Assembly (NCBI GenBank): GCA_030647965.1
Contig: JAUSIT010000033.1
Coordinates: 1-35,096, forward strand
Direction: 5' to 3'
Source: Nanobdellota archaeon
GTDB taxonomy: Archaea > Nanobdellota > Nanobdellia > Pacearchaeales > GW2011-AR1
DNA length: 35,096 nucleotides
The notes beneath the pieces were generated by a model. The model had not been told where the DNA came from, ran no database searches, and was given only the letters and a program-made list of their open reading frames with translations. A program made the translations under genes and the position numbers. This document shows positions 1-35,096 of the stretch, in pieces. Positions within the stretch are counted from its first letter, which is position 1; every line of letters starts with the position of its first letter.

Positions 1-400
1 TTATTTTTATCTTGGCGGTATCTTCAATCACATCACCTGTTTTGTCGGGAAGCAGCCTCATGTTGTGAATGTCCATTCCCTGAATCTCTATTTCTACCTT
101 TCTAATGCTTGAATGGTTTGGAGTCAAAACAATTGTCTTATGGTCTGGCCCCCATTTCTTTTCAAATGTTCCTAAGGTATAATTAAATTTAGACAGAGGG
201 ATATTTGGGATAGAAGAACGATCTATTTTTAAATAGATTAAATAGTCTCCATAGGTCATTATAGGTATTGTGCTTTTTCCTTCTTTCTCGCTTTCTCTTT
301 CAAAAGCTTCTAAATCCTTTCTATGAATATAGTAAAGACTATCTTCTTTGTTTATGCAATTTGTTATCTCGTCCAGTTTGTCTTCTTTTGTTTGTTCCAT
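1..400 (-). CDS. Hypothetical protein, 3' end cut by the window
   Basis: An open frame of 133 codons runs from ATG at 400 to the window edge without a stop, so the C-terminus is missing. The product is hydrophilic and charged, with no signal peptide or membrane segment. It opens MEQTKEDKLDEI and has a central beta-rich stretch (MTYGDYLIYLKID) about residues 49-61. Its ATG lies just 1 nt after the stop of the small membrane-anchored protein gene at 402-608, so the two are probably co-transcribed. I do not recognise the family. The uninterrupted frame and typical AT-rich codon use support a real gene. Confidence 0.6.
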   Translation of the reverse strand, partial: MEQTKEDKLDEITNCINKEDSLYYIHRKDLEAFERESEKEGKSTIPIMTYGDYLIYLKIDRSSIPNIPLSKFNYTLGTFEKKWGPDHKTIVLTPNHSSIRKVEIEIQGMDIHNMRLLPDKTGDVIEDTAKIKI

Positions 401-3036: not shown

Positions 3037-3318
3037 TTATTTTAAGAAAAAAAAGTAATAAGCTCCAGCTGCTAAAACTGCTAATATTAATAGGGATATT
3101 GCTAAAGTTCTCCATGGATTTCTATCATTTATTTTTCTTCTATTAGAAGTCATTTCATCATTTCTTAATCTGTTCTCTTCCATAGTCTTATCTGCTTTAT
3201 TTCTTCTTTCTATAGTTAATTCATCATTTTTGATTCTATTCTCTCTTATTGTTTCGTCTTCTATTTCTCTCCTATTTACTGTTGCTATATCGTTTTTTGT
3301 TCTTTGTGCGTTTGCCAT
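3037..3318 (-). CDS. Repeat-rich, tail-anchored small protein
   Basis: A 93-residue protein. Residues 5-65 are very hydrophilic and built from imperfect repeats of about 20-22 residues with the core E-x-N-R-x-x-N-D-E-x-T-x-x-R-R (for example ENRIKNDELTIERR and ENRLRNDEMTSNRR). They probably form a long helix or coiled coil. Residues 69-91 are one hydrophobic helix at the very C-terminus, so the protein is likely tail-anchored with the repeats in the cytoplasm. It is first in a two-gene operon with the NTF2-like gene and has a promoter with an operator-like inverted repeat. Function unknown. Confidence 0.6.
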   Translation of the reverse strand: MANAQRTKNDIATVNRREIEDETIRENRIKNDELTIERRNKADKTMEENRLRNDEMTSNRRKINDRNPWRTLAISLLILAVLAAGAYYFFFLK

Positions 3319-3370
3319 TTTATTTTTTCTTTGATTAATTTAATTATAATCCTATTAAAGATTAAAAAGA

Positions 3371-3420
3371 GTATATAGTCTAATGTAGTAGCCTAGTATA
3401 ACTGTTGTATGAGAAGATAC
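3371..3420 (-). promoter_or_regulatory. TATA box and diverged operator of the repeat-protein operon
   Basis: TATA-like GTATATAG at 3371-3378, followed further upstream by the imperfect repeat GTATGAGAAGATAC at 3407-3420. The gap is 28 nt instead of the 8 nt at the two related promoters. The leader just downstream of the TATA box is nearly the same as that of the ice-binding-like gene. Confidence 0.4.
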
Positions 3421-3435
3421 ATTATTTTATAAAAA

Positions 3436-4191
3436 TTATACTACTTTTTCAGAATGATCCCAAAGAATATTATATAAATCAAGGTATTCTTTTGCAACAA
3501 TATCATTTTCTATTACAATTGTGTAAATTGGATCAATCCAAAGAGTAATATAAACTGCGTCATTACAGACTATTTGGGTTATTTGGGAAGTTTTTGATTG
3601 CTGACTTTTAGGCAAAAGCCTTGCTTCTGTAAATTTTAGATTACTAAGTGTTTTAATTTCTTCATGAGGAAATTTGTAAAAAAGCATTTTAAGTTCAATG
3701 TGTTTTTTTATTCTTTCAAGATGAAAAGAATTCATCAATCTATCATTTAGGATATTAATTATATTTTCATTTTCTGCAAGACCATATATCCAAACCTCTG
3801 ATTTTTTTTCTAAAAGCCCAAATAAAATACTTTTTACAGTATTTAATCCTTCGAGAGTATAAACTTTTGGAGTCTGGCCTGGAACATATGTTGTTTTTAT
3901 ATAGTTCATAGCTATTTTTAGGTTTTCTAATTTATCTTTTTCTTCATTAATAATTAAATCTGTTGACAAAGCAGCAAAAACCTGCTTTCCTTCTTTATTA
4001 GATAAATAAACAAGATTTCTTTCCTTAAGTTTTGTTAGAGTATCATATACATTGGCCCTATGCATCTTAGTCCTTTTTGAGACTTGTGTTGCAGTAGATT
4101 CTTTATTTTTTAGAAGATCTAAATAAACCATTGTCTGCATTTTAGGTATACCTATTGATTCAAAAGATTTTAATATATGTTCTTCAGTCAT
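3436..4191 (-). CDS. TrmB-type transcriptional regulator
   Basis: A 251-residue protein. The N-terminal 75 residues form a winged helix of the TrmB type: LKSFESIGIPKMQTMVYLDLL, then STATQVSKRTKMHRANVYDTL as the recognition region, and a wing around LVYLSNKEGKQVFAAL. A helical linker (residues 78-100) and a C-terminal effector-like domain follow. It lacks the long maltose-binding part of classical sugar-sensing TrmB, so the ligand is unknown. A TATA box (AGTATATAAC, 4211-4220, read on the minus strand) lies about 25 nt before the ATG, suggesting a leaderless transcript. It is a candidate regulator of the neighbouring GTATGA-operator promoters, though no such operator precedes its own gene. Confidence 0.8.
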   Translation of the reverse strand: MTEEHILKSFESIGIPKMQTMVYLDLLKNKESTATQVSKRTKMHRANVYDTLTKLKERNLVYLSNKEGKQVFAALSTDLIINEEKDKLENLKIAMNYIKTTYVPGQTPKVYTLEGLNTVKSILFGLLEKKSEVWIYGLAENENIINILNDRLMNSFHLERIKKHIELKMLFYKFPHEEIKTLSNLKFTEARLLPKSQQSKTSQITQIVCNDAVYITLWIDPIYTIVIENDIVAKEYLDLYNILWDHSEKVV

Positions 4192-4339: not shown

Positions 4340-5047
4340 ATGGAAGACATGCAACATCAAGTAATGGGATATGACAGAACAGCAACTATGTTTGCTCCAG
4401 ATGGACATATATTACAAGTAGAGTATGCAGAAAAGACAGTTAGACTTGGGAGTGCATCTATTGGAATTGTATGTAAAGATGGAGTTGTTATTGTTTCTGA
4501 CAGAAGAACAAGAGATAAATTAGTTATTGGAGAGTCTGCAAATAAAATTTATGAAGTTGACGAACATATTATGGCTACTGCTTCTGGGATTATATCTGAT
4601 GCAAGAGTTTTAATTGAAAAAGCAAGAGTTATTTCTCAGCAACACAGAGTTACTTATGATTCAGAACCAAATACAGAATCAATTGTAAAGGAAATTGCAG
4701 ATATTAAACAGCAATTTACACAATATGGCGGAGGAAGACCGTTTGGAGTTGCACTAATGGTTGCAGGATTTAACAGCAAACCAGAACTTTTTACAACAGA
4801 TGTAACAGGAAATTATTTGGAATATCATGCAAATGCCATCGGAGAAAATGATGAAAAGTTAAAAGAAAAATTAAGAGAAAAATATAATGAAAATTTAACA
4901 TTAAATGAAGGAATGAAACTTGCACTTAGCATATTCAAAGAAACTTTAAAAGAAGATTTTAATATATCTAGGTTTGATATTTGTATAATCGATAAGAATA
5001 AAAAGATGAAAAGATTTATTGAAAGAGATTTAGAAGCATATAAATAA
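4340..5047 (+). CDS. psmA: 20S proteasome alpha subunit
   Basis: A 235-residue archaeal proteasome alpha subunit, forming the outer gating rings of the 20S core particle. The N-terminal signature GYDRTATMFAPDGHILQVEYAEKT is intact. The Tyr-Asp-Arg gate motif and the H0-helix region are therefore present. ASIGIVCKDGVVIVSDRR and the RPFGVALMVAGF segment follow as expected. Length is normal. It opens the conserved block psmA-SBDS-rrp4-rrp41-rrp42, the archaeal exosome-proteasome superoperon. The beta subunit and the regulatory ATPase are not in this window. Codon use matches its neighbours. Confidence 0.95.
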   Translation: MEDMQHQVMGYDRTATMFAPDGHILQVEYAEKTVRLGSASIGIVCKDGVVIVSDRRTRDKLVIGESANKIYEVDEHIMATASGIISDARVLIEKARVISQQHRVTYDSEPNTESIVKEIADIKQQFTQYGGGRPFGVALMVAGFNSKPELFTTDVTGNYLEYHANAIGENDEKLKEKLREKYNENLTLNEGMKLALSIFKETLKEDFNISRFDICIIDKNKKMKRFIERDLEAYK

Positions 5048-15233: not shown

Positions 15234-16676
15234 ATTCCAGTTTATCCTGCTGGAGGCTGCAGCTATTTGGTTTGGATTAAGCCATGCAAGTTTGTCGCAA
15301 GACAGCGAACTGCTCAGTAACACGTAGTTAATCTAACCTTAGGTCAAGGATACCCTCGGGAAACTGAGAAGAATACTTGATACGAGATTTTTTCTGGAAC
15401 GATATTTCTCTGAAATTCGAGCCTAAGGATGAGACTGCGGCTGATTAGGTAGTTGTTGAGGTAAAGGCCCAACAAGCCGATGATCAGTAAGGGCTCTTAG
15501 CGGAGTCGCCCTGAGAAGGAATCTGAGACACTATTCCTAGCTCTACGGAGTGCAGCAGGTACGAATTTTTTGCAATATACGAAAGTGTGACAGAGCGAAC
15601 CAAAGTGCTTTCCGCACAGGAAAGCTTTTCATTGCTGTAAAAAGGCAGTGGAATAAGGACTGGGTAAGACTGGTGCCAGCCGCCGCGGTAATCCCAGCAG
15701 TCCAAGTTGCAGCCATCTTTATTGGGTCTAAAACATCCGTAGCTTGCTTAATAAGTTTCTTGTGAAATCTTATATCTCAAGTATAAGCCGTTGCAAGAAA
15801 TACTATTAGGCTAGAGACCGGTAGATGTAAAGAGTATGTTCGAGGTAGTGGTAAAATATGTTAATCTCGGATAGACTAACGATGAGCGAAGGCACTTTAC
15901 AAGGACGGATCTGACAGTGAGGGATGAAGGCTAGGGGCGCAAAACGGATTAGATACCCGTGTAGTCCTAGCAGTAAACACTGCTCACTAAACATTGGTCT
16001 CTCTTCGGGAGAAATCAGTGCTGAAGCGAAGGCGAAGAGTGAGCTACCTGGGAAGTATAGTCGCAAGATCGAAACTTAAAGGAATTGGCGGGGAGACACT
16101 ACAACGAGTGACGCGTGCGGTTCAATTAGATTCTACACCGTGAACCTCACCAGGAGCGACAGCAGGATGAAGGTCATTCTAAAGGGCTTACCTGACACGC
16201 TGAGCGGAGATGCATGGCCGACGTCAGCCTGTGCTGTGAAGTGACCAGTTAAATCTGGTAACAGGCGAGACACTTGTGCATTATTACCACCGAAAGGAGG
16301 ACTTTATGCAGACTGCCTTGGTAACAAGGAGGAAGGTATGGGCTACGTTAGGTGAGTACGTCCCTAATCCCCTGGGCTACACGCGCGCGGCAATGGTATA
16401 CTCAATGAGATGCAACTCCGAAAGGAGAAGCTAATCCCCTAATGTATATCTCAGTCTAAATTGAGGGCTGCAACTCGCCCTCATGACACTGGAATTCGTA
16501 GTAATCGTTCATTAGCAGTGAACGGTGAATATGTCCCTGTCTCTTGCACACACCGCCCGTCAAACCAACCGAGTTATGCAGAGGTGAAGCTTTTTTAAGA
16601 AAAACCTTCGTATGATAAGGTAGGTTAAGTCGTCACAAGGTATCTGTAGGGGAACCTGCAGATGGATCACCTCCTA
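15234..16676 (+). rRNA. 16S ribosomal RNA
   Basis: A complete archaeal small-subunit rRNA of about 1440 nt. It starts ATTCCAGTTTATCCTGCTGG and ends with the anti-Shine-Dalgarno GGATCACCTCCT. The 530 loop (GCCAGCCGCCGCGGTAA), the archaeal AAACTTAAAGGAATTGGCGG, GATTAGATACCCGTGTAGTC and CACACCGCCCGTC are all present. Ends are set by comparison with known archaeal 16S ends and may be off by a few bases. Near the 3' end AAGTCGTCACAAGG replaces the near-universal AAGTCGTAACAAGG (C at 16634), which also weakens the common 1492R primer site. Short open frames inside it are chance. Confidence 0.97.
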
Positions 16677-16737
16677 AAAATTTTTACTCTTGATATAATA
16701 AGAAATTATTAAATCAATTGTAAAAGGAAAAATTTTT
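16676..16737 (+). repeat. Hairpin repeat, copy 3 (after 16S)
   Basis: AAAAATTTTTACTCTT (16676-16691) and GTAAAAGGAAAAATTTTT (16720-16737) form a diverged version of the hairpin seen after rpsB, inside the 16S side of the processing region. Confidence 0.4.
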
Positions 16738-16765
16738 CAAAATTTTTTTAAAAATTTTAAATTTC

Positions 16766-16801
16766 GTAAGCTCTTTTTAGAGTTGATTGTTCCTAGCTTC
16801 A
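16766..16801 (+). repeat. Downstream arm of the 16S rRNA processing stem
   Basis: GTAAGCTC, AGAGTTGATTGTT and CTAGCTTCA pair with the three upstream segments at 15070-15140, closing the pre-16S helix. Confidence 0.75.
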
Positions 16802-16899
16802 ATATATAAAATTAAATAAATAAAAATAAATTTGATTAGAAAAAATAAATAAAACAATAAACAAACATTTAAAAATAAAAACAGGCACCAATAAAATAA

Positions 16900-16970
16900 G
16901 GGCCTGTAGTCCAACGGTATAACACTTCGTTTGCACCGAAGAGATCCGTGTTCAATTCACGGCAGGTCCA
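16900..16970 (+). tRNA. tRNA-Ala (anticodon TGC)
   Basis: A 71-nt tRNA between 16S and 23S, the usual archaeal place for tRNA-Ala. The acceptor stem GGGCCTG/CAGGTCC carries the G3:U70 wobble that marks alanine tRNAs. The anticodon arm CTTCG-TTTGCAC-CGAAG gives anticodon TGC, and the T arm is CCGTG-TTCAATT-CACGG. The D stem is weak: only two good pairs are visible. No 3' CCA is encoded. Confidence 0.92.
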
Positions 16971-17294
16971 TTCGAGCAATTTCGCGAAGACAAAATAAAA
17001 TTGTCAATCACGAACGAGATTGCGAGTTGTTCTAAAAATGGAAATAGATAAATAAAAATCATAAATCACACTCACATCGAGGGAGAAGTCAACTTCAAAA
17101 ATGACATAGGATGTAAAAGTCCATCAATGATGAACTTTGCAAGATGTTTTGCAAAGGGAGTTTGATAATATGAAATCATATTAAATGAGAACAGTACTTA
17201 ATTAAAAAATTTTATTTTGTAAAAAAAATAAAATTTAAGTTTCCCACATTATGTGTGGAAGGAAGAAGAATATCCTACGATTTTGTTTAAATTT
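16971..17294. other. Spacer between tRNA-Ala and 23S rRNA
   Basis: No gene is seen in this 324-nt spacer. It holds several hairpins, including CTTTGCAA/TTGCAAAG (17135-17156) and AATATG/CATATT (17167-17182), and the upstream arm of the 23S processing stem. The exact 5' end of 23S within or just after it is uncertain. Confidence 0.5.
17188..17209 (+). repeat. Upstream arm of the 23S rRNA processing stem
   Basis: This 22-nt stretch (core AGAACAGTACTTAATTAAAA) is an exact reverse complement of 20176-20197, some 3 kb away on the other side of 23S. The pair forms the pre-23S processing helix. Confidence 0.85.
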
Positions 17295-20100
17295 TATTTA
17301 AGCAAAATTTTTGAAACTGTTAGACGAATAGCTTGGCTTAAATTACGACGAAGGACGTGGCAAGCTGCGATAAGCTTAGGCGAGCTGCATGCGAGCATTG
17401 AACCTAAGATTTCCGAATGTGAAACACTTTTATTCCGAGAGGAAGGAAAACGCCGAGAATTGAAACATCTTAGTACCGGCAGGAAAAGAAAATAAATTAA
17501 TGATTCCCCTATTAGCAGCGAGCGAAAAGGGAAAAGGGCAAGCTGAATCTTTGCTCGAAAGAGTGTAAGAGATGTGGTGCACGTAAATTTCTAAGTGAAT
17601 GATTTGAATTTTCTGGAAAGAAAGACCTTAGAAGGTGATAGTCCTGTAAAATAGTTCATATGAAATTGTGTATATGAGTAGGGCCCTCTGGATTGGGGGT
17701 CTGAATACAGCAGAATTAACTGCTAACCCTAAATATTGATTTAAGTCAGATAGCGCAAGAGTACCGCGATGGAAAGCTGAAAAGTACTCTCACAAGAGGG
17801 TTAAAAGACTTGAAATCTAACAGTTACAAGATTGCTACTGCCCTACGGGGTTGTAGCGTACGTTTTGAAGAACGGGCCGGGGAGTTTATCTTTGTGGCAA
17901 GGTTAATAAATGGAGCCGTAGCGAAAGCAAGTCTGAAATGGGCGTTAGTCACTGAGTTAAGACCTGATGCCAGATGATCTATACCTGAACAGGATGAAGT
18001 TTCTTGAAAAAGAAATGGAAGTCCGAACTAGTGCTATGTACATGTGCTTGGATGATTTGGGTATAGGGGTGAAAAGCCATTCTAATCTGGCGATGGCTGG
18101 TTCCTATTGAAATATGCCTGGGTATAGTTTTGTATTGCTTGTTAATGAGGTAAAGTACGGATAGGGTTTGCAGAGTCTTCTGACTACGGAACTCTTTCCA
18201 ACTCAGAACTTATTAACTGCAGAATACAAGAAGCAGCTTCGGTGCGTAAGGTACCGTGGCGAGACCCGAATAAGGGAGACTGAAGTTAAGGTCCCAAAAT
18301 ATTTGCTAAGTGTATCAAAGAGAGTTTTTATTCTAAGACAGTGGGGATGTAGGTCCAGAAGCCGCCACCATTTAAAGAAAGCGTAACAGCTCACCTATCG
18401 AGAATAGAAGCCTCGAAAATGGACCGGGCTAAAGCAAATTACCGATACTTCAGAGGTATCTAGTTAGATACTCTGGTAAATAGGCGTATTTCTTGCGTCG
18501 AAGCTTCTCTGTAAAGAGGAGTGGAGCGAGAAGTAATGCGGATCCCGGTGGAAGTAGGATCTGATCTTCCTGAGAACCGGAAGATGTCGAAAGGGCAAGG
18601 TTTCCTTGGCACTAACAATTATCCAAGGGTTAGTCGGTACCTAAGTTGTATCTTAACTGAGTACGACGATGGGCAACAGGTTAATATTCCTGTACTGACT
18701 ATTTTTGCTAAGATTTCAAATCACTTTCGGATAGATGGAATACCGAGAGGTATAATGAAAGAGAAATAAATGGATCGTAATGATAAGAAGTTTATGAATC
18801 TTCACTAATTCGTCAACTCCAAGAGTCAGTGAAAAGTTTGAAGTATAGAAAATAGTTAGCCGTACCGAGATCTAGCACTGGTGCCCTAGCTGAGAAGGCT
18901 AAGACATGAAAGGTTAAATTAGTTAAGGGAATTCGGCATATTAGTCCCGTATCTTCGGTATAAGGGATGTCTATTTTCTTGTATGAATTTTTATATGGGA
19001 AAGTAGATCACAGTAACAAGGATGGCCCGACTGTTTACCAAAAACGTAGCCAAGTGCAATTCCGAAAGGAGATATATACTTGGTGAAGTCTGCCCAGTGG
19101 TGGTGTCTAAAACTCTATTCCAATGGAGCTAAAGCCCATCAAACGGCGGGCGTAACTATGACGCTCTTAAGGTAGCGTAATGCCTTGTCGTCTGAATGGC
19201 GACGTGCATGAATGGCGTAACGAGGTTGTCACTGTCCCTAACTAAAACCTTCCGAACTCATTTACCGGTGAAAAGGCCGGTATCGCCTAGTGGGAAGCGA
19301 AGACCTTATAAACCTTTACTGCAGCCTGTTGTTGTGTTTTTATTGTAAGTGCATAGAGTAAGTAGGAGCATCGATGTCGCGATTTTGGTTGCGACGGAGC
19401 AAAAGTGTAACACTACTCATTCATGATGAAAATGCTCACTTTTCTAGGACAGCAATAGGTGGGCAGTTTGGCTGGGGCGGCGCCCGGTTGAAAAGATATC
19501 AATCGGGCCTAAAGACAGGCTCATCCAGGTCGGAAATCTGGAGTAGAGTGTAAGGGCAAAAGCTTGTCTGACTGTTTTTCGAAAAGCAAGAAAAGCAGGG
19601 ATGAAAGTCGGGCCTAACGAACCACCATAGCTTTTTAATGGGGCTTGGTGATGACAGAAAAGGTACTTTAAGGATAACAGGCTTGTCGCTCCCGATAGTC
19701 CACATTGACGGGGCGGTTTGGTACATCGCTGTCGGCTCTTCCTATCCTGGCTGTGCACAAGCAGCCAAGGGTGTCGGAGTTCACGCATTAAAAGGGATCG
19801 TTAGCTGGGTTAAGAACGTCGTGAGACAGTTTGTATGATATCTACTAGGTGTGTTATTGTCTGAGTGGAACGACTCTCTAGTACGAGAGGAACGTGAGTC
19901 GGAAGCCTCTGGTGTATCGGTTGTTATGAGCAGGCCGAGCAGCTACGCTTTATATCGATAAGAGCTGAAAGCATCTAAGCTCGAAGCGATCCGCAAAACG
20001 AGACAATTAAGGCCGCAACAAAAGATTGCGTTGATAGAGATGGGATGTACGCACGAAGGCAACGACGTGTTCAGTCCGCATCTACTAATAGCCTCATTAA
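17295..20100 (+). rRNA. 23S ribosomal RNA
   Basis: A complete archaeal large-subunit rRNA of about 2.8 kb. Hallmarks are GACGAAGGACGTGGCAAGCTGCGATAAGC split across 17346-17374, TAACTATGACGCTCTTAAGG, the P loop (GGCTGGGGCGG), AAGGATAACAGGC, GTCGTGAGACAG and the sarcin-ricin loop (CTAGTACGAGAGGAACG). The 5' and 3' ends are placed by analogy with other archaeal 23S sequences and are uncertain by tens of bases at the 5' end. Several peptidyl-transferase-centre bases differ from the near-universal ones (see findings). Many short open frames in this span are chance and should not be annotated. Confidence 0.95.
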
Positions 20101-28322: not shown

Positions 28323-29777
28323 ATGGATATAAAAAAACTGCTGAAAACACTTAATCTACATCAAACAGCTTATGTGAATTTTGATCTGAAAAATCCAAAA
28401 AATGGAGAATATATGCTTTGTGTTTTTCATTTAGTTCCTGAAAAAAAATTAAATATATTGCAAGCTGCTGCTGAAGTTGCAGCTGAATCATCAACAGGAA
28501 CAAATTTTAAAGTTAATACTGAAACTCCTTTTTCAAGAAATTTGAATGCTTTAATATACCAGATTGATTTAAAGAGAAATTTAGTTTGGATAGCTTATCC
28601 ATGGAGATTATTTGATAGAAGAGGAAATGTTCAGAATATATTGACATATGTTGTTGGGAATGTTTTAGGAATGGGAAGTATAGTTGCTTTAAAATTATTA
28701 GATGTCTGGTTTCCTCCTACAATGTTAGAACAATATGATGGGCCCAGTTATACCTTGGATGATATGAGAAAATATCTAAAAGTGTATGATAGACCTATAC
28801 TTGGAACAATAATAAAACCTAAAATGGGGTTGACTTCGGCAGAATATGCAGAAGTATGTTATGATTTCTGGATTGGTGGAGGAGATTTTGTTAAAAATGA
28901 TGAGCCGCAAGCAGACCAAGATTTTTGCCCATATGATAAAATGGTTGAAAATGTAAAAGAAGCGATGGATAAAGCAGTAAAAAAAACAGGGAAGAAAAAA
29001 GTTCATTCTTTTAATGTTTCAGCTCCTGATTATGATACAATGATTAAAAGATGTGAGTTAATAAAAAATGCAGGATTTGAAAAAGGAAGTTATGCTTTTT
29101 TAATAGATGGGATAACCGCCGGGTGGATGGCTGTTCAGACGTTAAGAAGAAAATATCCTGATGTCTTTATACATTTTCACAGAGCAATGCATGGTGCTTT
29201 TACACGTCCTGAAAATCCAATTGGTTTTACTGTATTAGTTTTATCTAAGTTTGCAAGATTAGCGGGTGCTTCGGGAATACATACTGGAACAGCAGGAGTT
29301 GGGAAAATGAAGGGAAGTCCTGAAGAAGATATTGTTGCAGCACATAATATTCTACATTTAAAAGATAAAGGATATTTCTTTGAACAAGAATGGGCAAAAA
29401 TACCTGAGAAAGATAAAGATATGATGCATTTAGTGCATAGAGATTTAACACATCATGTTATATTTCAAGATGATAGTTGGAGGGGGGTAAAAAAGTGTTG
29501 TCCAATTATTTCAGGAGGTTTAAATCCTACTTTATTGAAACCATTTATAGATATAATGGGAACAATGGATTTTATAACAACCATGGGTGCAGGAGTGCAT
29601 GCTCACCCAAAAGGAACACAAGAAGGAGCAACTGCTTTAGTTCAGGCATGTGAATCATACAAGAAAAAGATAGATATACACAAATACGCTAAGACACATA
29701 AAGAATTAGCAGAAGCAATTAAGTTTTTTGAGAAAAATAAGAAAGAAGTGAAGAGTTCTAATAGTGAGAATAGTTAA
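28323..29777 (+). CDS. rbcL: RuBisCO large subunit, form II/III-like
   Basis: A 484-residue RuBisCO. Catalytic residues are kept: K165 in GTIIKPKMGL, the carbamylated K191 with D193 and E194 in GGGDFVKNDEP, H286 in IHFHRAMHGA, H320 in SGIHTGT, loop-6 K328 in GVGKMKG and the phosphate site SGG at 397-399. AAESSTGTN marks the N-domain. Compared with form II enzymes it has an insert of about 25-30 residues (about 352-390) before CPIISGGLNP, as in form II/III enzymes of methanogens and DPANN archaea. In such archaea RuBisCO works in the AMP/nucleoside pathway, giving 3-phosphoglycerate from ribulose bisphosphate; enolase here could use that product. AMP phosphorylase and the R15P isomerase are not in the window. 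Confidence 0.93.
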   Translation: MDIKKLLKTLNLHQTAYVNFDLKNPKNGEYMLCVFHLVPEKKLNILQAAAEVAAESSTGTNFKVNTETPFSRNLNALIYQIDLKRNLVWIAYPWRLFDRRGNVQNILTYVVGNVLGMGSIVALKLLDVWFPPTMLEQYDGPSYTLDDMRKYLKVYDRPILGTIIKPKMGLTSAEYAEVCYDFWIGGGDFVKNDEPQADQDFCPYDKMVENVKEAMDKAVKKTGKKKVHSFNVSAPDYDTMIKRCELIKNAGFEKGSYAFLIDGITAGWMAVQTLRRKYPDVFIHFHRAMHGAFTRPENPIGFTVLVLSKFARLAGASGIHTGTAGVGKMKGSPEEDIVAAHNILHLKDKGYFFEQEWAKIPEKDKDMMHLVHRDLTHHVIFQDDSWRGVKKCCPIISGGLNPTLLKPFIDIMGTMDFITTMGAGVHAHPKGTQEGATALVQACESYKKKIDIHKYAKTHKELAEAIKFFEKNKKEVKSSNSENS

Positions 29778-30192: not shown

Positions 30193-31209
30193 ATGGGGCT
30201 AAAAAATCTTATATCAAAGGTTGCTTTGATTTCTTGTTTAAGTTTTGCTGGTTTGAACAATGGTTGTTATACTGTTATGGCACATAAAGATATTATAAAA
30301 ACTGAAAATGCAAGAATAGAACAAAAAATTGAAATAAATAATTATAATGCAGAATATTCTGGTGGCGGAGGATATGTTTATAATTCTCTTGGACAGGATT
30401 TTTATAATCCTTTTTGGAGTTTACATAATCCTTTTTGGAATAATTATAATTATGGAGATAGATATTATGGACCTGATTTTGGTTTTGGGTATAGTTATTA
30501 TGATCTTGGTTTTAGGCCTTGGCATAATGATTTTTGGTTAGATTATTATTCTCCCTATAGGTCTCATTCTTTTAGACATTACCCTCATATTCCTTTTTCT
30601 AGAGATTCTTCAAGAGATTGGGAAGATGAAAGAGAAGATAGAAACGGGAGAAGTGATGGACAAGAACCAAAAATTAATTACCGAACTAATGAAAGACAAA
30701 TAAGAATGGACAGACTTGGAACAACAATTAGAAGAACTTCACAAACTCCTCAATTAGATAGACAAAATGTAAATAAACCAGACCAGCAAAATCCAATTAA
30801 CAGAAGTCAAAGAAATTATCAAAATCAACAAAGAATAGATAGAACTGATTCTCAACAACCACAAAGAACAGAAAGAAGAAATTATCAATCAACACAACCT
30901 CAACAAACACAACCTAAACAATCAGAACAATATCAACAACCTAAATCAAATCAATCAAACACAGAAAGACCTTTAACTCAACAACCAAGAGTTTCTCCAC
31001 AACCTCCAGTAAGAAGAAATTCAGAAAGTATAACAATAACTTCAAGAAGAGAGTCTCAACCTGTTTCACAACCTAGACCTGCTCCACAACCTCAAATAAA
31101 ATCAGATAAACCTGTTTCACAACCACAATCTTCTCCAAGACAACAAAGAGCCCCAACTCAACAAAATAGTTCTGAAAAAGAAAAACCAGTAAGAAGAGGA
31201 ATAAAATAA
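30193..31209 (+). CDS. Secreted Gln/Pro/Arg-rich low-complexity protein
   Basis: A 338-residue protein. The N-terminus (MGLKNLISKVALISCLSFAG) is signal-like and ends in NNGC at residue 25, a possible but imperfect lipobox. Residues 55-135 are rich in Tyr, Phe, Trp, Asn, Gly and Asp (YNPFWSLHNPFWNNYNYGD). From about residue 140 it is highly charged and then Gln/Pro/Ser/Arg-rich to the end, very likely disordered. Such Tyr/Trp then Gln/Pro layouts are known mostly from bacterial envelope proteins. The gene stands alone before the amidase operon, with a TATA-like TTTTATAAAT about 60-70 nt upstream. Confidence 0.6.
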   Translation: MGLKNLISKVALISCLSFAGLNNGCYTVMAHKDIIKTENARIEQKIEINNYNAEYSGGGGYVYNSLGQDFYNPFWSLHNPFWNNYNYGDRYYGPDFGFGYSYYDLGFRPWHNDFWLDYYSPYRSHSFRHYPHIPFSRDSSRDWEDEREDRNGRSDGQEPKINYRTNERQIRMDRLGTTIRRTSQTPQLDRQNVNKPDQQNPINRSQRNYQNQQRIDRTDSQQPQRTERRNYQSTQPQQTQPKQSEQYQQPKSNQSNTERPLTQQPRVSPQPPVRRNSESITITSRRESQPVSQPRPAPQPQIKSDKPVSQPQSSPRQQRAPTQQNSSEKEKPVRRGIK

Positions 31210-31277: not shown

Positions 31278-31883
31278 ATGAAAATTCATGAAGAAAAATT
31301 AAAATTTTATGATAGAACTTATACTTTAAAAACAGAAGGATTAAGAGAAAATAAGCCCGAATTTATTGTTATGCATGCAACTTATTCTTATGTTGACTTT
31401 GAGGGTGTTTTAAAAAAACATAAATCATTTGGATGGAATGGAGTAGGGTATCATCTTTTTATTTCTGGTGAAAATAGCATCTATCAAGGCAGGCCGTTTA
31501 ATTTAGAAGGCAGTCATGCACTGGGATTTAATACAAAATCGATTGGTATTTGCTTTTATTTACCTAAATGTATAAATGAAAAAAGAATAAAAACTGCAAA
31601 TGAAATTTTGAGTTTTATTAATGAATCAGATAATCTCGAAGTTATACCTCACACCTTAGCACAAATTGTATATGACAATAAACTACTAAGAGATTTAGAA
31701 GTAGACAAACAATTTCCTGAAGCAATAGATGTTGTTAGTGAAAAAAGATTTGAAAAAATAAAAAAGGATATGAGTTCTCTTGCAGATATATTAAATGATT
31801 CTAAATATAAAAAAATAAATTGGCTATTAAGGTCCTTTAAAAATTGTCCAGGACCTTTATTCTATAATTTTAGGAGATATTAA
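31278..31883 (+). CDS. Amidase_2/PGRP-fold amidase, cytoplasmic
   Basis: A 201-residue protein with the fold signature of zinc N-acetylmuramoyl-L-alanine amidases (T7 lysozyme and PGRP family). Aligned to T7 lysozyme, the zinc ligands are H33 (IVMHATYS), H125 (VIPHT) and C190 (NCPGPLF), and the catalytic tyrosine is Y58 (GWNGVGYHLFI). IYQGRP and GSHALGFNTKSIGICF complete the core. About 60 residues are inserted between H125 and C190, where the family normally has only a few. There is no signal peptide, so it should act inside the cell. It cleaves amide bonds in known relatives; the substrate here is unknown. Its stop overlaps the next start (TAATG), so it is coupled to the ligase-like gene. 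Confidence 0.82.
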   Translation: MKIHEEKLKFYDRTYTLKTEGLRENKPEFIVMHATYSYVDFEGVLKKHKSFGWNGVGYHLFISGENSIYQGRPFNLEGSHALGFNTKSIGICFYLPKCINEKRIKTANEILSFINESDNLEVIPHTLAQIVYDNKLLRDLEVDKQFPEAIDVVSEKRFEKIKKDMSSLADILNDSKYKKINWLLRSFKNCPGPLFYNFRRY

Positions 31884-33562
31884 TGGCTGATAAATACATA
31901 GGAATTGAGAATGAATTGACTAGTTTTAATGATGAAAATGAGGAAATTGATTTTAAGAAGTATTTTGATAGATTTGCCAATGATTCTGATTATAGAAAAG
32001 CAAGAAATGCAATACGAACAACAACTGGAAATGGGTTTTATGTTGATGGTGCGGAAATTGAGATTTTAACACCGCCAATTTTGATTAATAAAGGATTTGC
32101 AACAAGATTAACTGATTCTTTAATGATTGGAAGAGATAGAGTTGTAAAATCAATTCCAGAATTAAGGAATACTGGATATTCAATGCACTGGAATTTAAGC
32201 TCACAAAAAGAACTTCAAGAAATTTCTGATAATTATAGGATTGAAAAAATCTCAGATTTTTATAAAAGATTAATAATTCCATTTCATTTATTTGGATTGA
32301 CTCCCCTATCTGTAGGGTTAGCAATACGAGATAGAACTAGTTTGGGCAGATATGAATTATTGGGAGATTCTATAAATAACGAAGAGCAGATTAATGCACT
32401 TGGTTTAATGTTAGGGGCTTATAGCCATTTAGCATCAAATTTAGATAAACATGATAAAAATTTTCATTTATATTATTCAAATTTTAATTTTTTTAGTGTT
32501 AATTGTAGAATAGATTCATTTTTGAAAAATAAAAGATACAGTTATTTTGATTCAAATCAGGGAGAAATTCAGGCACAGCAATATTTAGAAATGTTTTACA
32601 AGTGGATTGAACCGTTTGTTTCTGTATTAGGAACTAAAAAAGAAGTTCAGAATTTAGAGGATTTTATAGAAGGAAGAAAACAATTAGAATTTGATAAATT
32701 CAAGTATTATAATTGTTTAAATGAAATGAATTTTAAGTCTGGAGGGACTTATTTGCCAAATGAACTTTTTAAAGCAATCACCTTAACTGAAACAAGAGAA
32801 AGAAAAATTCCATTAGAAGGAGAACTTTTAGGAGAGATTGTAAAACAATTAAAAGATAAAATAGAGGAAATGTCCTGGAACAACATTACAATTAATGATA
32901 ATAACTCAGAAATAAAAGGAATAAGAGAAATTTATGAATTTGCAAGAAGATTAAATACAAAATTACCAACACTAAAAGAAATTAATTTAGATGAATTGCA
33001 AACTCAACATATTGATTTTGGAGATTTATTAGATAGTGCTGGAATTAAACAAGATGTTAGCAAAGATACATCCTTAGATTTGCCAGAAAAGGATATTAAA
33101 GAATTTTTTAAACTGAACCTTAGCCCCCCGGTTTATTGCAAAAATAAATTAGGAAGATTTAGTAAATATTATGATAATGAAACAAGAAAAGCTAAAGATG
33201 TAGTTTGTGAGGAATGTGCCGCCCATAATAATTGTTATCCCGAAATAAGAGATAATGAAAAACCAGAACATGGTCTTGAATATAAGATAAAGGGATTGGA
33301 GGATTTTAGAGAACACCTTCTTCATTTCAATGGCCAAAATTTTAATTATCGAATAGAATATATTTTTGATGAAAGTGGAAGAAGAATAGGAACAAGAAAC
33401 AGAAGAACTTCATCTATAGAAGGAACTGATTTACAAGATAATGAGATAATCCCTCCATTAATATCTTTAAGAAATGGAGATATATCCAGATATTTGGATG
33501 TATTAAATCCAGATAGAAGAGAAGAAAGAAACAATGAAGAAGGAGAAAATAATGACAGATAA
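31883..33562 (+). CDS. Carboxylate-amine ligase-like protein (PafA/Dop-like), paralogue A
   Basis: A 559-residue protein. Motifs in the order of Pup ligase/depupylase are: YIGIENEL (E9, E11), GNGFYVDGAEIEILTPP (D55, E58, E60; compare NGARLYLD..HPEY), GYSMHWNLS (H102, N104; compare YGCHENYL), LIIPFHLF with G nearby (compare LLPFLVTRQ), and GRYELLGDSINNEEQI (R156; compare RRLHVIVGDSNMSE). These map to ATP/Mg and catalytic sites of that family, including the base Asp. Amidoligase_2 or GCS2 relatives are alternatives in the same superfamily. A possible zinc knuckle lies at C419, C442, C445, C451. About 105 further residues form a tail missing in paralogue B. No signal peptide. TAGGAGAT before the ATG is a good ribosome site. 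Confidence 0.62.
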   Translation: MADKYIGIENELTSFNDENEEIDFKKYFDRFANDSDYRKARNAIRTTTGNGFYVDGAEIEILTPPILINKGFATRLTDSLMIGRDRVVKSIPELRNTGYSMHWNLSSQKELQEISDNYRIEKISDFYKRLIIPFHLFGLTPLSVGLAIRDRTSLGRYELLGDSINNEEQINALGLMLGAYSHLASNLDKHDKNFHLYYSNFNFFSVNCRIDSFLKNKRYSYFDSNQGEIQAQQYLEMFYKWIEPFVSVLGTKKEVQNLEDFIEGRKQLEFDKFKYYNCLNEMNFKSGGTYLPNELFKAITLTETRERKIPLEGELLGEIVKQLKDKIEEMSWNNITINDNNSEIKGIREIYEFARRLNTKLPTLKEINLDELQTQHIDFGDLLDSAGIKQDVSKDTSLDLPEKDIKEFFKLNLSPPVYCKNKLGRFSKYYDNETRKAKDVVCEECAAHNNCYPEIRDNEKPEHGLEYKIKGLEDFREHLLHFNGQNFNYRIEYIFDESGRRIGTRNRRTSSIEGTDLQDNEIIPPLISLRNGDISRYLDVLNPDRREERNNEEGENNDR

Positions 33563-34982
33563 ATACATAGGAATTGAAAATGAATTAGTTAGTTTTTATG
33601 AAGAATATGAGCAGACTAGTTTTCAAAACTATTTTGATAGATTTGCAGATGATTCTGATTATAAAAAATCTAAAACTGCAGTAAGAACAACAACTGGAAA
33701 TGGATTTTATGTTGATGGGAGTGAAATTGAGATTTTAACACCCCCAATTTTGATAAACAAAGGATTTGCAACAAGATTAACTGATTCTTTGATGATTGGA
33801 AGAGAGAGGGTGGTAAAATCAATTCCTGAATTAAAGCATACAGGATATTCAATGCACTGGAATTTAACAGCTGAAAAAGATTATGACAAGATAGAACAAT
33901 TTTACAGAATTATTGCAATCCCTTTTCATTTATTTGGCTTGACTCCTTTATCTGTTGGATTAAATATGAGATGGAAAGTAGATACAGATGATGGTGAGAA
34001 AGAAGTTATAAAAAGATATGAATTATTAGGAGATTCTATAAATAATGAAGAGCAGATTAATGCTCTTGCCTTGATGCTTGGTTCTTATTCCCATATAATG
34101 AGACATTTTGATTACTTGGGAAAAAAGCAATTTCCTTTAAAAGATTTGGATTTAGATTTAGATTATACTGAAAACTTAACTGAAAAATTTCTTCCAGAAG
34201 GAAGATCTAGTTTTATTAAAGCTATAGTGAATAAACCTATTCAGGCACAGCAATATCTGGAATTGTTTTACAAATGGATTGGGCCATTTGTTTCTAAATT
34301 AGGAAGTAAAAAGGAAATCCAGAATTTAGAGGATTTTATAGAAGCAAGAAAACCTCTTGAATTTGATAAATTCAAGTATTATAATTGTTTAAATGAAATG
34401 AATTTTAAAGAGCGGGGAGTTTATTTGCCAAATGAACTTTTTAAAAATATTGTCTTAACTGAAACAAGAGAGAGAAAAGTGCCATTAGAAGGCAGGCTTT
34501 TAGGCGAGATTGTAAAGCAGCTAGAAGATAAAATAGCAAGCATGGAATGGGATAAAATTTCATATAAATTATTAACTTTTTGCAAGATTTGTGAGGAATA
34601 TCATAATGAAGAAATTAAAGAAATTAAAGAAATAAGTAATATTTATAAATTTGCAAGAGGGCTTGATAAAGAATTGCCTGAATTTGAACAAAATAATTTT
34701 GATGATATAAAAATAACTGAGGGCAATATTATTTTAGAATATTTGGAAAAATTAGAAGAATTAAAATATCGTCCTGATAAAGATAATTCTTTAGATTTGC
34801 CAGATGAAGAGATAAGAAATTTTTTTAGAGGTATTGAAGAGGATTATGAGTGTCAAATACAACTAGAAAGATTTAGCAGCTATTATAATAATAGTAGCAG
34901 AAAAGCAGAAGATATAGTTTGCAAAGAATGTGATAAAATATGTTATAATAAAAAGAAAATAACGAAGAAGGGGAAAAACTAA
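33552..34982 (+). CDS. Carboxylate-amine ligase-like protein (PafA/Dop-like), paralogue B
   Basis: A 476-residue paralogue of A. I start at ATG 33552 (MTDKYIGIENEL), which matches the starts of the other two copies and has GAAGGAGA just upstream; ATG 33534 would add six residues. It overlaps the end of A by 11 nt. Residues about 44-98 are almost identical to A (VRTTTGNGFYVDGSEIEIL and onward), including every motif residue. The middle and the segment before IIPFHLF differ and have indels. The C-terminal cysteines are kept (ECQIQ, VCKECDKICY) but the protein ends soon after, without the tail of A. Same fold and caveats as A. Confidence 0.62.
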   Translation: MTDKYIGIENELVSFYEEYEQTSFQNYFDRFADDSDYKKSKTAVRTTTGNGFYVDGSEIEILTPPILINKGFATRLTDSLMIGRERVVKSIPELKHTGYSMHWNLTAEKDYDKIEQFYRIIAIPFHLFGLTPLSVGLNMRWKVDTDDGEKEVIKRYELLGDSINNEEQINALALMLGSYSHIMRHFDYLGKKQFPLKDLDLDLDYTENLTEKFLPEGRSSFIKAIVNKPIQAQQYLELFYKWIGPFVSKLGSKKEIQNLEDFIEARKPLEFDKFKYYNCLNEMNFKERGVYLPNELFKNIVLTETRERKVPLEGRLLGEIVKQLEDKIASMEWDKISYKLLTFCKICEEYHNEEIKEIKEISNIYKFARGLDKELPEFEQNNFDDIKITEGNIILEYLEKLEELKYRPDKDNSLDLPDEEIRNFFRGIEEDYECQIQLERFSSYYNNSSRKAEDIVCKECDKICYNKKKITKKGKN

Positions 34983-34983
34983 A

Positions 34984-35096
34984 ATGGAAAATAAGTATAT
35001 AGGAATTGAGAATGAATTGATTAGTTTTAATGATGAAAATGAACAAATTGATTTTGGGTATTATTTTTATAGATTTGTAAATGATTCTGATTATAA
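34984..35096 (+). CDS. Third ligase-like paralogue, cut by the window end
   Basis: Starts 1 nt after the stop of paralogue B with MENKYIGIENELISFNDENE and stays open to the last base (37 codons). It is closer to A than to B in this stretch (SFNDENE and the run FVNDSDY against FANDSDY). It shows that the tandem array has at least three members. Confidence 0.8.
   Translation, partial: MENKYIGIENELISFNDENEQIDFGYYFYRFVNDSDY

Follow-up and report, generated by a model that had tools for sequence, protein, structure and literature searches.

What is encoded by an archaeal operon in which an amidase gene runs into a tandem array of Pup-ligase-like genes, and could its products add and remove a tag? 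The question is raised by the 3' end of the window (the whole stretch of DNA analysed, 35,096 nucleotides from a Nanobdellota archaeon), which lies within an operon made up of an Amidase_2 gene followed by two full-length ligase-like genes and the beginning of another:

31278..31883, forward strand: Amidase_2 protein (PGRP / T7-lysozyme-type zinc amidase), cassette gene 1; Pfam PF01510
31883..33562, forward strand: predicted PafA/Dop-fold carboxylate-amine ligase 1, 559 residues; AF2 model, Foldseek, VIA, motifs, and hhalign
33552..34982, forward strand: predicted PafA/Dop-fold ligase 2, 476 residues from the ATG at 33552; 61% identity to ligase 1, motifs retained
34984..35096, forward strand: ligase 3, first 37 codons, truncated by the contig end; ORF read

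These genes and their junctions are as described in the original prediction. The amidase and ligase 1 are joined by TAATG (stop 31881-31883, ATG 31883), ligases 1 and 2 overlap by 11 nt with the ATG at 33552 (the ORF list also offers a longer ligase 2 start at 33534), and a 1-nt gap separates the ligase 2 stop (34982) from the ligase 3 start (34984). Contig C31 of the same genome carries a partial ligase, two more ligases, a probable membrane protein, and a serine hydrolase of the class A β-lactamase fold. The rest of ligase 3 is probably found there (L009, 13712-15064), and we infer that contigs C18 and C31 are joined as one array. Their ends display zero exact overlap, and the join would imply that ~33 nt of ligase 3 are absent, or that extra copies lie in between. 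The 20S proteasome announced for this archaeon was located as an alpha/beta pair (window 4442-4990 and contig C3).

Sequence comparisons and structural models support a conserved amide-chemistry operon of DPANN archaea, as well as the predicted ligase and hydrolase types. The cassette is without a name in the libraries searched. Among the matches listed from the open-access literature, no apparent description of the cassette or of an archaeal PafA/Dop family was found; in the available text of PMC7947786 and PMC2588565, bacteria are the only reported source of PafA/Dop enzymes.

Predicted fold and motifs of the ligases

Sequence search by itself cannot place the ligase. The Pup_ligase model PF03136 gives zero matches at E <= 10 in the own genome (one genome) and is not among the Pfam matches of nine ligase proteins scanned. 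No ligase is named by Pfam (five own ligases, L033, two of L034, and L035), NCBIfam (two own, one of L034), PHROGs (five own), or PADLOC (two), and the PADLOC anti-phage defence models match none of six proteins at E <= 1. Scattered ligase matches to Pfam TssN (0.0018), TRI5 (0.0072), and PHROGs (0.08-0.48) are regarded as chance. Two matches, both with E about 1, come from a PDB profile search. Aligned by hhalign with a PafA/Dop profile, the ligase scores 34.8, whereas column-shuffled controls (two sets of 60 shuffles) reach at most 24.7 and 19.0; this match is weak by itself (P 0.0014, probability 17%, confident alignment at residues 4-68 only), and global hhalign yields nothing.

The AF2 model of ligase 1 has a mean pLDDT of 61, with 211 of its 559 residues at 70 or above. 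Its structural neighbours point to the PafA/Dop enzymes, which fill the best ten rows of Foldseek and the best eight of VIA. With Foldseek, PafA (4bjr_B) is matched at E 1.1e-7 and Dop at 4.3e-7 to 6.5e-6, with low TM-scores (0.34-0.49), as compared to 2.9e-3 for GCS2 (1tt4) and 5.6e-3 or worse for glutamine synthetase (GS)-type enzymes. With VIA, Dop 5lrt reaches Z 20.5 (rmsd 4.0, 330 residues aligned, model 3..360) and PafA 4bjr Z 18.1 (rmsd 4.3, 322 aligned), followed by GCS2 1tt4 (Z 15.3, rmsd 3.6, 253 aligned), with which the PafA entry 4b0t (Z 15.2) is level, and by glutamine synthetase (Z about 9). A small C-terminal domain is described as unique to pupylation enzymes (excerpts of PMC8599861). 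In this region, seven Dop/PafA rows extend to model residue 359-361 (316-331 residues aligned) and a further Dop row ends at 317, whereas GCS2 rows stop at 301-302; GCS1 rows extend to 324-344 at Z about 11, and GS rows in some cases to 399-416 at Z about 9. Model residues 301-370 have a pLDDT of 73-94. The modelled fold is supported as belonging to the PafA/Dop branch of the glutamine synthetase fold.

The motifs had been predicted to follow the PafA/Dop order, and GIENE, YxD...E, HWN, and RxExLGD are indeed found in that order. GhExE, which marks PafA/Dop enzymes on core strand 1 (excerpts of PMC2588565), is kept as GIENE, GVENE, or GLENE in all 13 aligned rows covering it; a frameshift cuts row 14 (L018). 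The acidic D55 and E60 (strands 2 and 3) and the H102 and N104 of HxN (strand 4) are invariant in the 14 rows. The published strand-6 motif [QH]x4D is absent from the ligases, which instead display RxExxxD (R156, E158, and D162 invariant). In the depupylase Dop, the Dop-loop places 40-65 residues ahead of strand 2 (excerpts of PMC8599861). The distance from GhExE to the YxD aspartate is 43-61 residues in 13 ligases and 47 in C. glutamicum PafA; judged from this spacing, the ligases appear to lack a Dop-loop, as does PafA.

The tandem ligases of the own genome combine a conserved core with divergent segments. Core residues 49-106 are 93% identical (pN/pS 0.16), while segments 107-132 and 183-228 fall to 27% and 22% identity with pN/pS about 1, the alignment of these loops being uncertain. 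One catalytic core with several differing segments suggests that the paralogues probably share their chemistry and differ in their partners.

The hydrolases and the membrane protein

The window amidase is assigned to Amidase_2 (PF01510, E 9.5e-9, 36.1 bits vs. a cut-off of 26), a cut-off also exceeded by the L034 amidase. The family profile matches the N-acetylmuramoyl-L-alanine amidase 6srt (1.2e-20) and T7 lysozyme (2.3e-14), and phage amidase families match as well. H33, H125, and C190, which we take to be the zinc positions by analogy with T7 lysozyme, are invariant among eight aligned amidases, in line with the zinc ligands claimed earlier. The amidase thus resembles the Amidase_2 / PGRP / T7 lysozyme family in score and His-His-Cys positions, but it has 65 residues between H125 and C190, where classical Amidase_2 enzymes have a short spacing, and it comes with fixed partner genes. 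The signal peptide was said to be absent, and hydropathy agrees: in seven amidases the Kyte-Doolittle maximum over 19 residues is 0.40-1.20 (0.89 in the window amidase), short of a strongly hydrophobic segment, and no export signal was seen.

The enzyme set originally named, an amidase with ligases, holds but is incomplete: it missed the serine hydrolase, present in all eight intact-ligase loci, and the membrane protein, present in five. The hydrolase displays the class A β-lactamase fold (PF13354, 4.2e-30; VIA Z 21.9), with SxxK, SDN, and KxG invariant across eight rows. Its NCBIfam bla_class_A scores of 60-80 bits (three hydrolases scanned) miss the equivalog cut-off of 200. The best PDB sequence match is PBP-A of Thermosynechococcus (TLL2115; E 1.1e-23), with a Sphaerobacter β-lactamase entry close behind (2.4e-22). 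The DD-peptidase PBP-A is specific for muropeptides with an amidated D-isoglutamate (excerpts of PMC11189452). Fold and motifs are common to both, whereas the archaeal hydrolases have a longer omega-loop region, an operon with an ATP ligase, and a host without a Mur_ligase_M match. In the omega-loop, which holds the Glu166 deacylation base, no invariant Glu occurs between M145 and T169 in the eight rows. The comparison with PBP-A is alignment-dependent at this point: in one alignment the invariant L150 falls on the L158 position, in the other a column where three of eight rows have Glu. No export signal was seen in the hydrolases by hydropathy.

Five loci also encode a probable membrane protein that is propeller-like and has a hydrophobic segment at its N-terminus, in each case directly preceded by the ligase with the most hydrophobic C-terminal tail. 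The proposed membrane segments have marginal hydropathy values (1.17-2.44; above 1.6 in three of ten). Loci L019 and L021 have no propeller-like gene, and at L020, which ends within its second ligase, one may follow.

Distribution and linkage of the cassette

Intact ligases are found at eight loci in archaea of several families, with one to five ligases per locus. Amidase and hydrolase share an uninterrupted gene run with the ligase in all eight, the own locus being counted across two contigs. More genes may follow at L020 and L017, since they end in the second ligase and in the hydrolase, respectively. Two further loci, excluded from the eight, have ligases broken by stops or frameshifts: L018 (G329) keeps the amidase and lacks the hydrolase, and in the part of L032 (G326) that was read, both are missing. 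At L019 a frameshift interrupts the amidase, which was excluded from the amidase alignment.

The cassette is rare, its ligase being present in 7 of 371 sampled genomes. A broader ligase profile, run on a 371-genome sample centred on G095 in which the own genome was not drawn, recovers the same six other genomes and none new. Close relatives of the hydrolase (E <= 1.6e-136) occur in five and of the amidase (E <= 1.8e-69) in six of the 371, all ligase-bearing. Because the profiles were built from cassette sequences, high scores of these members are expected; what counts is that ligase-free genomes never come near the thresholds. Genomes lacking a ligase do give weaker matches: 7 of the 371 match the hydrolase, at best at 1.3e-22 (limit 1e-10), and 7 the amidase, at best at 3.0e-38 in G149 (limit 1e-5). 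Identity matrices of ligase, amidase, and hydrolase are correlated over seven of the eight intact loci (L019 left out), with 33 to 102 of 5040 permutations reaching the observed r.

The amidase and ligase thus occur together in distant relatives. With this conserved pairing and a fold of the PafA/Dop branch, neither outcome named as fatal to the original prediction, a fold other than that of glutamine synthetase-like ligases or neighbours not kept together, was found.

Possible functions

A Pup gene is expected as a neighbour of 50-90 residues ending in G[EQ] (excerpts of PMC2588565). None ending in Gly-Gly-Glu/Gln had been seen nearby, and the wider search agrees: no small ORF is common to the cassette flanks, which extend to 9 kb at most and less where a contig ends, and no ORF of more than 27 codons ends in GG[EQ] in the 85%-complete genome, the genome-wide scan covering this ending only. 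The conserved flank genes are limited to housekeeping synteny between L018 and L019 and a weak tRNA-synthetase-like pair between L021 and L009. Of the proposed set adding and removing a tag, the ligase fold and the amidase linkage stand, and conjugation itself is a candidate function.

We tentatively propose that the cassette is an ATP-driven module for ligation and cleavage of side-chain amides, perhaps reversibly tagging targets near the membrane. The ligase would phosphorylate a carboxylate, probably of glutamyl type, with ATP, and the activated carboxylate would be joined to an amine, forming a side-chain (iso)peptide bond. The ligase target may lie close to the membrane on its inner side, and the membrane protein might recruit targets or sense an outside signal. 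The tandem ligases would probably perform the same chemistry on different partners, with a peptide, an amino acid, or a murein-like fragment as candidate donor. Amidase and serine hydrolase could cut or process the bonds, which would make the modification reversible. A more specific form, a ubiquitin/SAMP-independent archaeal conjugation in which a bank of PafA-type ligases, sharing a core but with diversified segments, adds a non-Pup donor to membrane-proximal targets and two unrelated hydrolases (of PGRP and β-lactamase/PBP-A type), redirected from murein chemistry, erase the modification or process the donor, is rather unlikely. If the module is as proposed, an archaeal PafA/Dop-fold family in tandem arrays, tied to two amide hydrolases and a probable membrane partner, would extend this chemistry beyond Pup, and the cassette would be a testable candidate for isopeptide modification, or for a new peptide pathway, in DPANN archaea.

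The lack of a GG[EQ] ORF, together with the murein-peptide enzymes among the closest solved relatives of both hydrolases, keeps a peptide-building or salvage role in play. It is possible, if doubtful, that a small non-ribosomal peptide, of gamma-linked or murein-stem-like type, is built or trimmed by the cassette, each ligase adding one residue and the hydrolases trimming or cross-linking. The muropeptide DD-peptidase PBP-A as best match of the hydrolase, the N-acetylmuramoyl-L-alanine amidases as nearest relatives of the amidase, and the varying number of ligases fit this reading, as does the precedent of two uncharacterised GS-fold families, with transglutaminase-like fusions or peptidase neighbours, predicted to make peptides rather than tags (excerpts of PMC2588565). 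However, Mur_ligase_M has no match in the 85%-complete own genome, the amidases and hydrolases have no visible export signal, a one-core ligase bank with varied segments would be unusual for small-molecule steps, and the alignment of the ligase model spans the PafA/Dop length. Salvage or detoxification of murein fragments acquired from bacteria is improbable: it would suit two signal-less hydrolases with murein-peptide relatives in a host without a Mur_ligase_M match, but leaves the ATP ligase, its multiplication, and a hydrophobic-tailed ligase beside a propeller-like protein unexplained. Archaea may carry bacteria-killing peptidoglycan hydrolases, of whose archaeal homologues 32% (67/210) bear a known signal peptide while others may exit via injection systems (excerpts of PMC12352652), so that a missing signal does not exclude such a role; the phage-family matches of the amidase notwithstanding, an antibacterial or lysis set is very unlikely here, given hydrolases without a visible export signal, no peptidoglycan-binding domain by Pfam in the amidases and hydrolases of the own genome and L034, a ligase left without a task, and no ligase relative in phages (ligase 1), plasmids (one L034 ligase), or IMG/VR viral contigs (two peptide patterns, 37 stretches, none confirmed).

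The tagging reading can be set beside known systems. The PafA/Dop pupylation enzymes, the best structural neighbours, share the order of GhExE, YxD, HxN, and GD, and a 20S proteasome is also encoded in the own genome. Unlike them, the cassette ligases are archaeal, missed by Pfam and NCBIfam models, found without Pup, present in up to five tandem copies, some with a C-terminal hydrophobic tail, and linked to a zinc amidase and a β-lactamase-fold hydrolase. Other GS-fold ligase families are likewise uncharacterised and have fused or neighbouring peptidase-type or cyclotransferase partners, but these are transglutaminase-like, glutamine-amidotransferase-like, or of Aig2 type instead of Amidase_2 or β-lactamase folds (excerpts of PMC2588565). 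In the Pup ligases of Plesiocystis and Rhodopirellula, core strand 4 is followed by four TM segments, and a Pup gene lies alongside, whereas the cassette has one C-terminal hydrophobic segment, two amide hydrolases, and no Pup found; common to both are a tie to the membrane, an adjoining membrane-protein gene, and unlinked proteasome genes (excerpts of PMC2588565).

The operon and its probable continuation on a second contig

The operon opens with an Amidase_2 gene followed by tandem ligase-like genes and, as read from ORFs and contig, is cut by the end of the window, which is the entire contig C18 of a 982 kb, 85%-complete genome. A second contig of this genome, C31, ends in further ligases (L009 is a stretch of C31).

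31278-31883: Amidase_2 gene, first gene of the operon
31883-33562: ligase-like gene 1
33552-34982: ligase-like gene 2
from 34984: ligase-like gene 3, first 37 codons, truncated at the contig end
C31 end: a partial ligase and two complete ligases
L009 9460-10749 (C31): probable membrane (propeller-like) protein, 429 aa, with an N-terminal hydrophobic segment
L009 8093-9457 (C31): β-lactamase-fold hydrolase, 454 aa
C31, after the β-lactamase-fold gene: Methyltrn_RNA_2 gene

The original prediction had described genes joined by TAATG, an 11-nt overlap and a 1-nt gap, and these junctions were borne out on re-reading the ORFs. Both contigs break off in a part of the ligase gene where the copies are near-identical; their ends share no exact overlap and are compatible with a single gene lacking ~33 nt. 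For these reasons, the single operon with five ligases across C18 and C31 is one that we infer. The hydrolase and propeller-like genes of L009 complete the cassette outside the window. Directly upstream of the operon lies a Gln/Asn/Pro-rich 338-aa protein (30193-31209), belonging to no Pfam family and with a lipoprotein-like N-terminus by eye, and a RuBisCO large chain gene is found at 28323-29777 (Pfam, 1.1e-91). L009 also carries a possible toxin-antitoxin pair (3305-4011; weak YoeB-like match, E 0.05).

The five ligases alternate between conserved and variable segments. Residues 49-106 are 93% identical (pN/pS 0.16), followed by residues 133-182 (76%, 0.35), 229-312 (74%, 0.40) and 1-48 (67%, 0.56). 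Residues 313-450 are 45-31% identical (0.72-0.89), and the values for residues 107-132 (27%, 1.01) and 183-228 (22%, 1.09), as for variable segments generally, hinge on an uncertain alignment. This pattern fits enzymes that would share the same chemistry and act on different partners. The first variable segment comes after core strand 4, the place where the Pup ligases of Plesiocystis and Rhodopirellula are described as having a membrane insertion (PMC2588565).

Predicted fold of the ligases

None of the family libraries searched names the ligases. An AlphaFold2 model built from eight rows has a mean pLDDT of 61 and a pTM of 0.62, with pLDDT of 70 or more in 211 of 559 residues. Its ten best Foldseek matches are all PafA (Pup ligase) or Dop (depupylase), with E-values of 1.1e-7 to 4.1e-4, probability 1.00 and TM-scores of 0.34-0.49. 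The VIA comparisons set it against other glutamine-synthetase-fold enzymes as well.

Comparison of the ligase model with known structures (VIA)
Dop 5lrt: Z 20.5, rmsd 4.0, 330 residues aligned
PafA 4bjr: Z 18.1, rmsd 4.3, 322 aligned
GCS2 1tt4: Z 15.3, rmsd 3.6, 253 aligned
PafA 4b0t: Z 15.2, rmsd 4.8, 296 aligned
Plant GCS: Z 14.3
GCS1: Z about 11
Glutamine synthetases (GS): Z about 9

Most PafA/Dop rows reach model residue 359-361 and thereby cover the position at which pupylation enzymes have a small C-terminal domain, called unique to them in PMC8599861, whereas GCS2 rows end at 301-302. Some GCS1 and GS rows also pass 320, at lower Z, so the ligases may, but need not, have this domain.

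A ligase profile compared with three PafA/Dop sequences scores 34.8 (P 0.0014, probability 17%); among shuffled controls, run as two sets of 60, the highest scores are 24.7 and 19.0. The alignment is confident at residues 4-68 only, where GIENE is paired with GIETE and YVD with YLD; forced to full length, it pairs HWN with HEN and ELLGD with VIVGD. The 13 ligases measured have no Dop-loop, the GhExE motif and the YxD aspartate being 43-61 residues apart, and an invariant RxExxxD stands in place of the strand-6 motif [QH]x4D published for pupylation enzymes (PMC2588565). We class the ligases as a PafA/Dop-fold family rather than as Pup ligases. Section 5 of PMC7947786 and PMC2588565 list PafA/Dop homologues from bacteria only. 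The folds of ligase, amidase and hydrolase are already known; what appears to be new is the ligase family, together with its host range and the cassette. Among the papers listed by searches of an open-access library, none seemed to describe such a cassette.

Partner proteins and possible function

Fold and motifs suggest that the ligases perform ATP-dependent ligase chemistry. Their product may be a side-chain amide, which the two hydrolases would reverse, making the cassette an ATP-driven module for side-chain-amide ligation and cleavage. A Pup-like protein is not evident: no small ORF is common to the cassette flanks, and the 85%-complete genome has four GG[EQ]-stop sites, with none of them in an ORF of more than 27 codons. 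The genome does encode a 20S proteasome. A peptide-building or peptide-trimming pathway comes close in likelihood to the amide module.

Murein-fragment salvage is a further rival. In the amidase, H33, H125 and C190 are invariant in the alignment; in the PDB it is closest to N-acetylmuramoyl-L-alanine amidases, and T7 lysozyme and PGRPs rank lower. The serine hydrolase keeps SxxK, SDN and KxG in all 8 rows. Its best PDB match is PBP-A (1.1e-23), which PMC11189452 describes as a DD-peptidase with specificity for D-isoglutamate-amidated muropeptides, with a Sphaerobacter β-lactamase entry near behind (2.4e-22), and its model is equidistant from class A β-lactamases and PBP-A (Z 21.9). No invariant Glu occurs in the omega-loop region of the 8 aligned rows; in two PBP-A alignments, the Glu166 position falls on an invariant Leu in one and on a column with Glu in 3/8 in the other. 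Mur_ligase_M has no match in the 85%-complete genome of the window. An antibacterial set is the remaining rival.

Amidases and hydrolases lack a strong hydrophobic segment (hydropathy maximum 1.35). The propeller-like protein, found in five loci, has an N-terminal one (1.19-1.67) preceded by 5-7 basic residues. FG-GAP repeats in it are just above the cut-off in L034 (9.5e-5), just below in L035 (FG-GAP_3, 2.4e-5), weak in L017 (0.17), and absent from the L033 protein and our own. In the five loci, the ligase gene directly before the propeller-like gene encodes the most hydrophobic tail (1.17-2.44), compared with 0.20-0.86 in the nine other ligases scanned. A membrane location is likely but not firm on these sequence features. 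The ligase targets may sit near the membrane.

Conservation and distribution of the cassette

Contigs of GTDB genomes yielded at least five further loci, a lower bound set by a search with two peptide patterns; four are titled Nanoarchaeota, Pacearchaeota or Woesearchaeota and one "archaeon". In a sample of the phylum, 7 of 371 genomes, from seven genera, possess the ligase: two of them correspond to the L018 and L021 contigs, and another four yielded new neighbourhoods. All eight loci with intact ligases (our own, L017, L019, L020, L021, L033, L034 and L035) hold the amidase and the β-lactamase-fold hydrolase within one uninterrupted gene run, in differing gene order; in L018 and L032, the ligases are broken and the hydrolase is missing. 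Close relatives of the hydrolase (5/371 genomes) and of the amidase (6/371) occur exclusively within the seven ligase genomes, with more distant relatives of each in seven others.

Beyond the cassette, a housekeeping context is common to L018 and L019 only, besides one weak tRNA-synthetase-like pair. Identity matrices of the three cassette proteins are correlated over seven loci (r 0.66-0.75; 33-102 of 5040 permutations reach the observed values), as expected if the cassette were inherited as a unit. Its distribution is patchy, since our genome alone has the ligase among the 56 searched around and including it.

Genome G149, a congener of G205, retains a diverged amidase (contig C3 602-1267; L057/L070); the sequence directly downstream matches the region past the L021 cassette, and hydrolase and ligase are apparently absent there. 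Ligase-less genomes of the phylum sample encode short Amidase_2/PGRP-like proteins of 125 and 146 aa (L058 1528-1905, L059 1450-1890). A TldD-like protein, named by eye, adjoins the broken ligase of G326 (L032 5767-7362), and L018 carries a DNA gyrase A-like gene with, by eye, an intein-like insertion (16161-19901).
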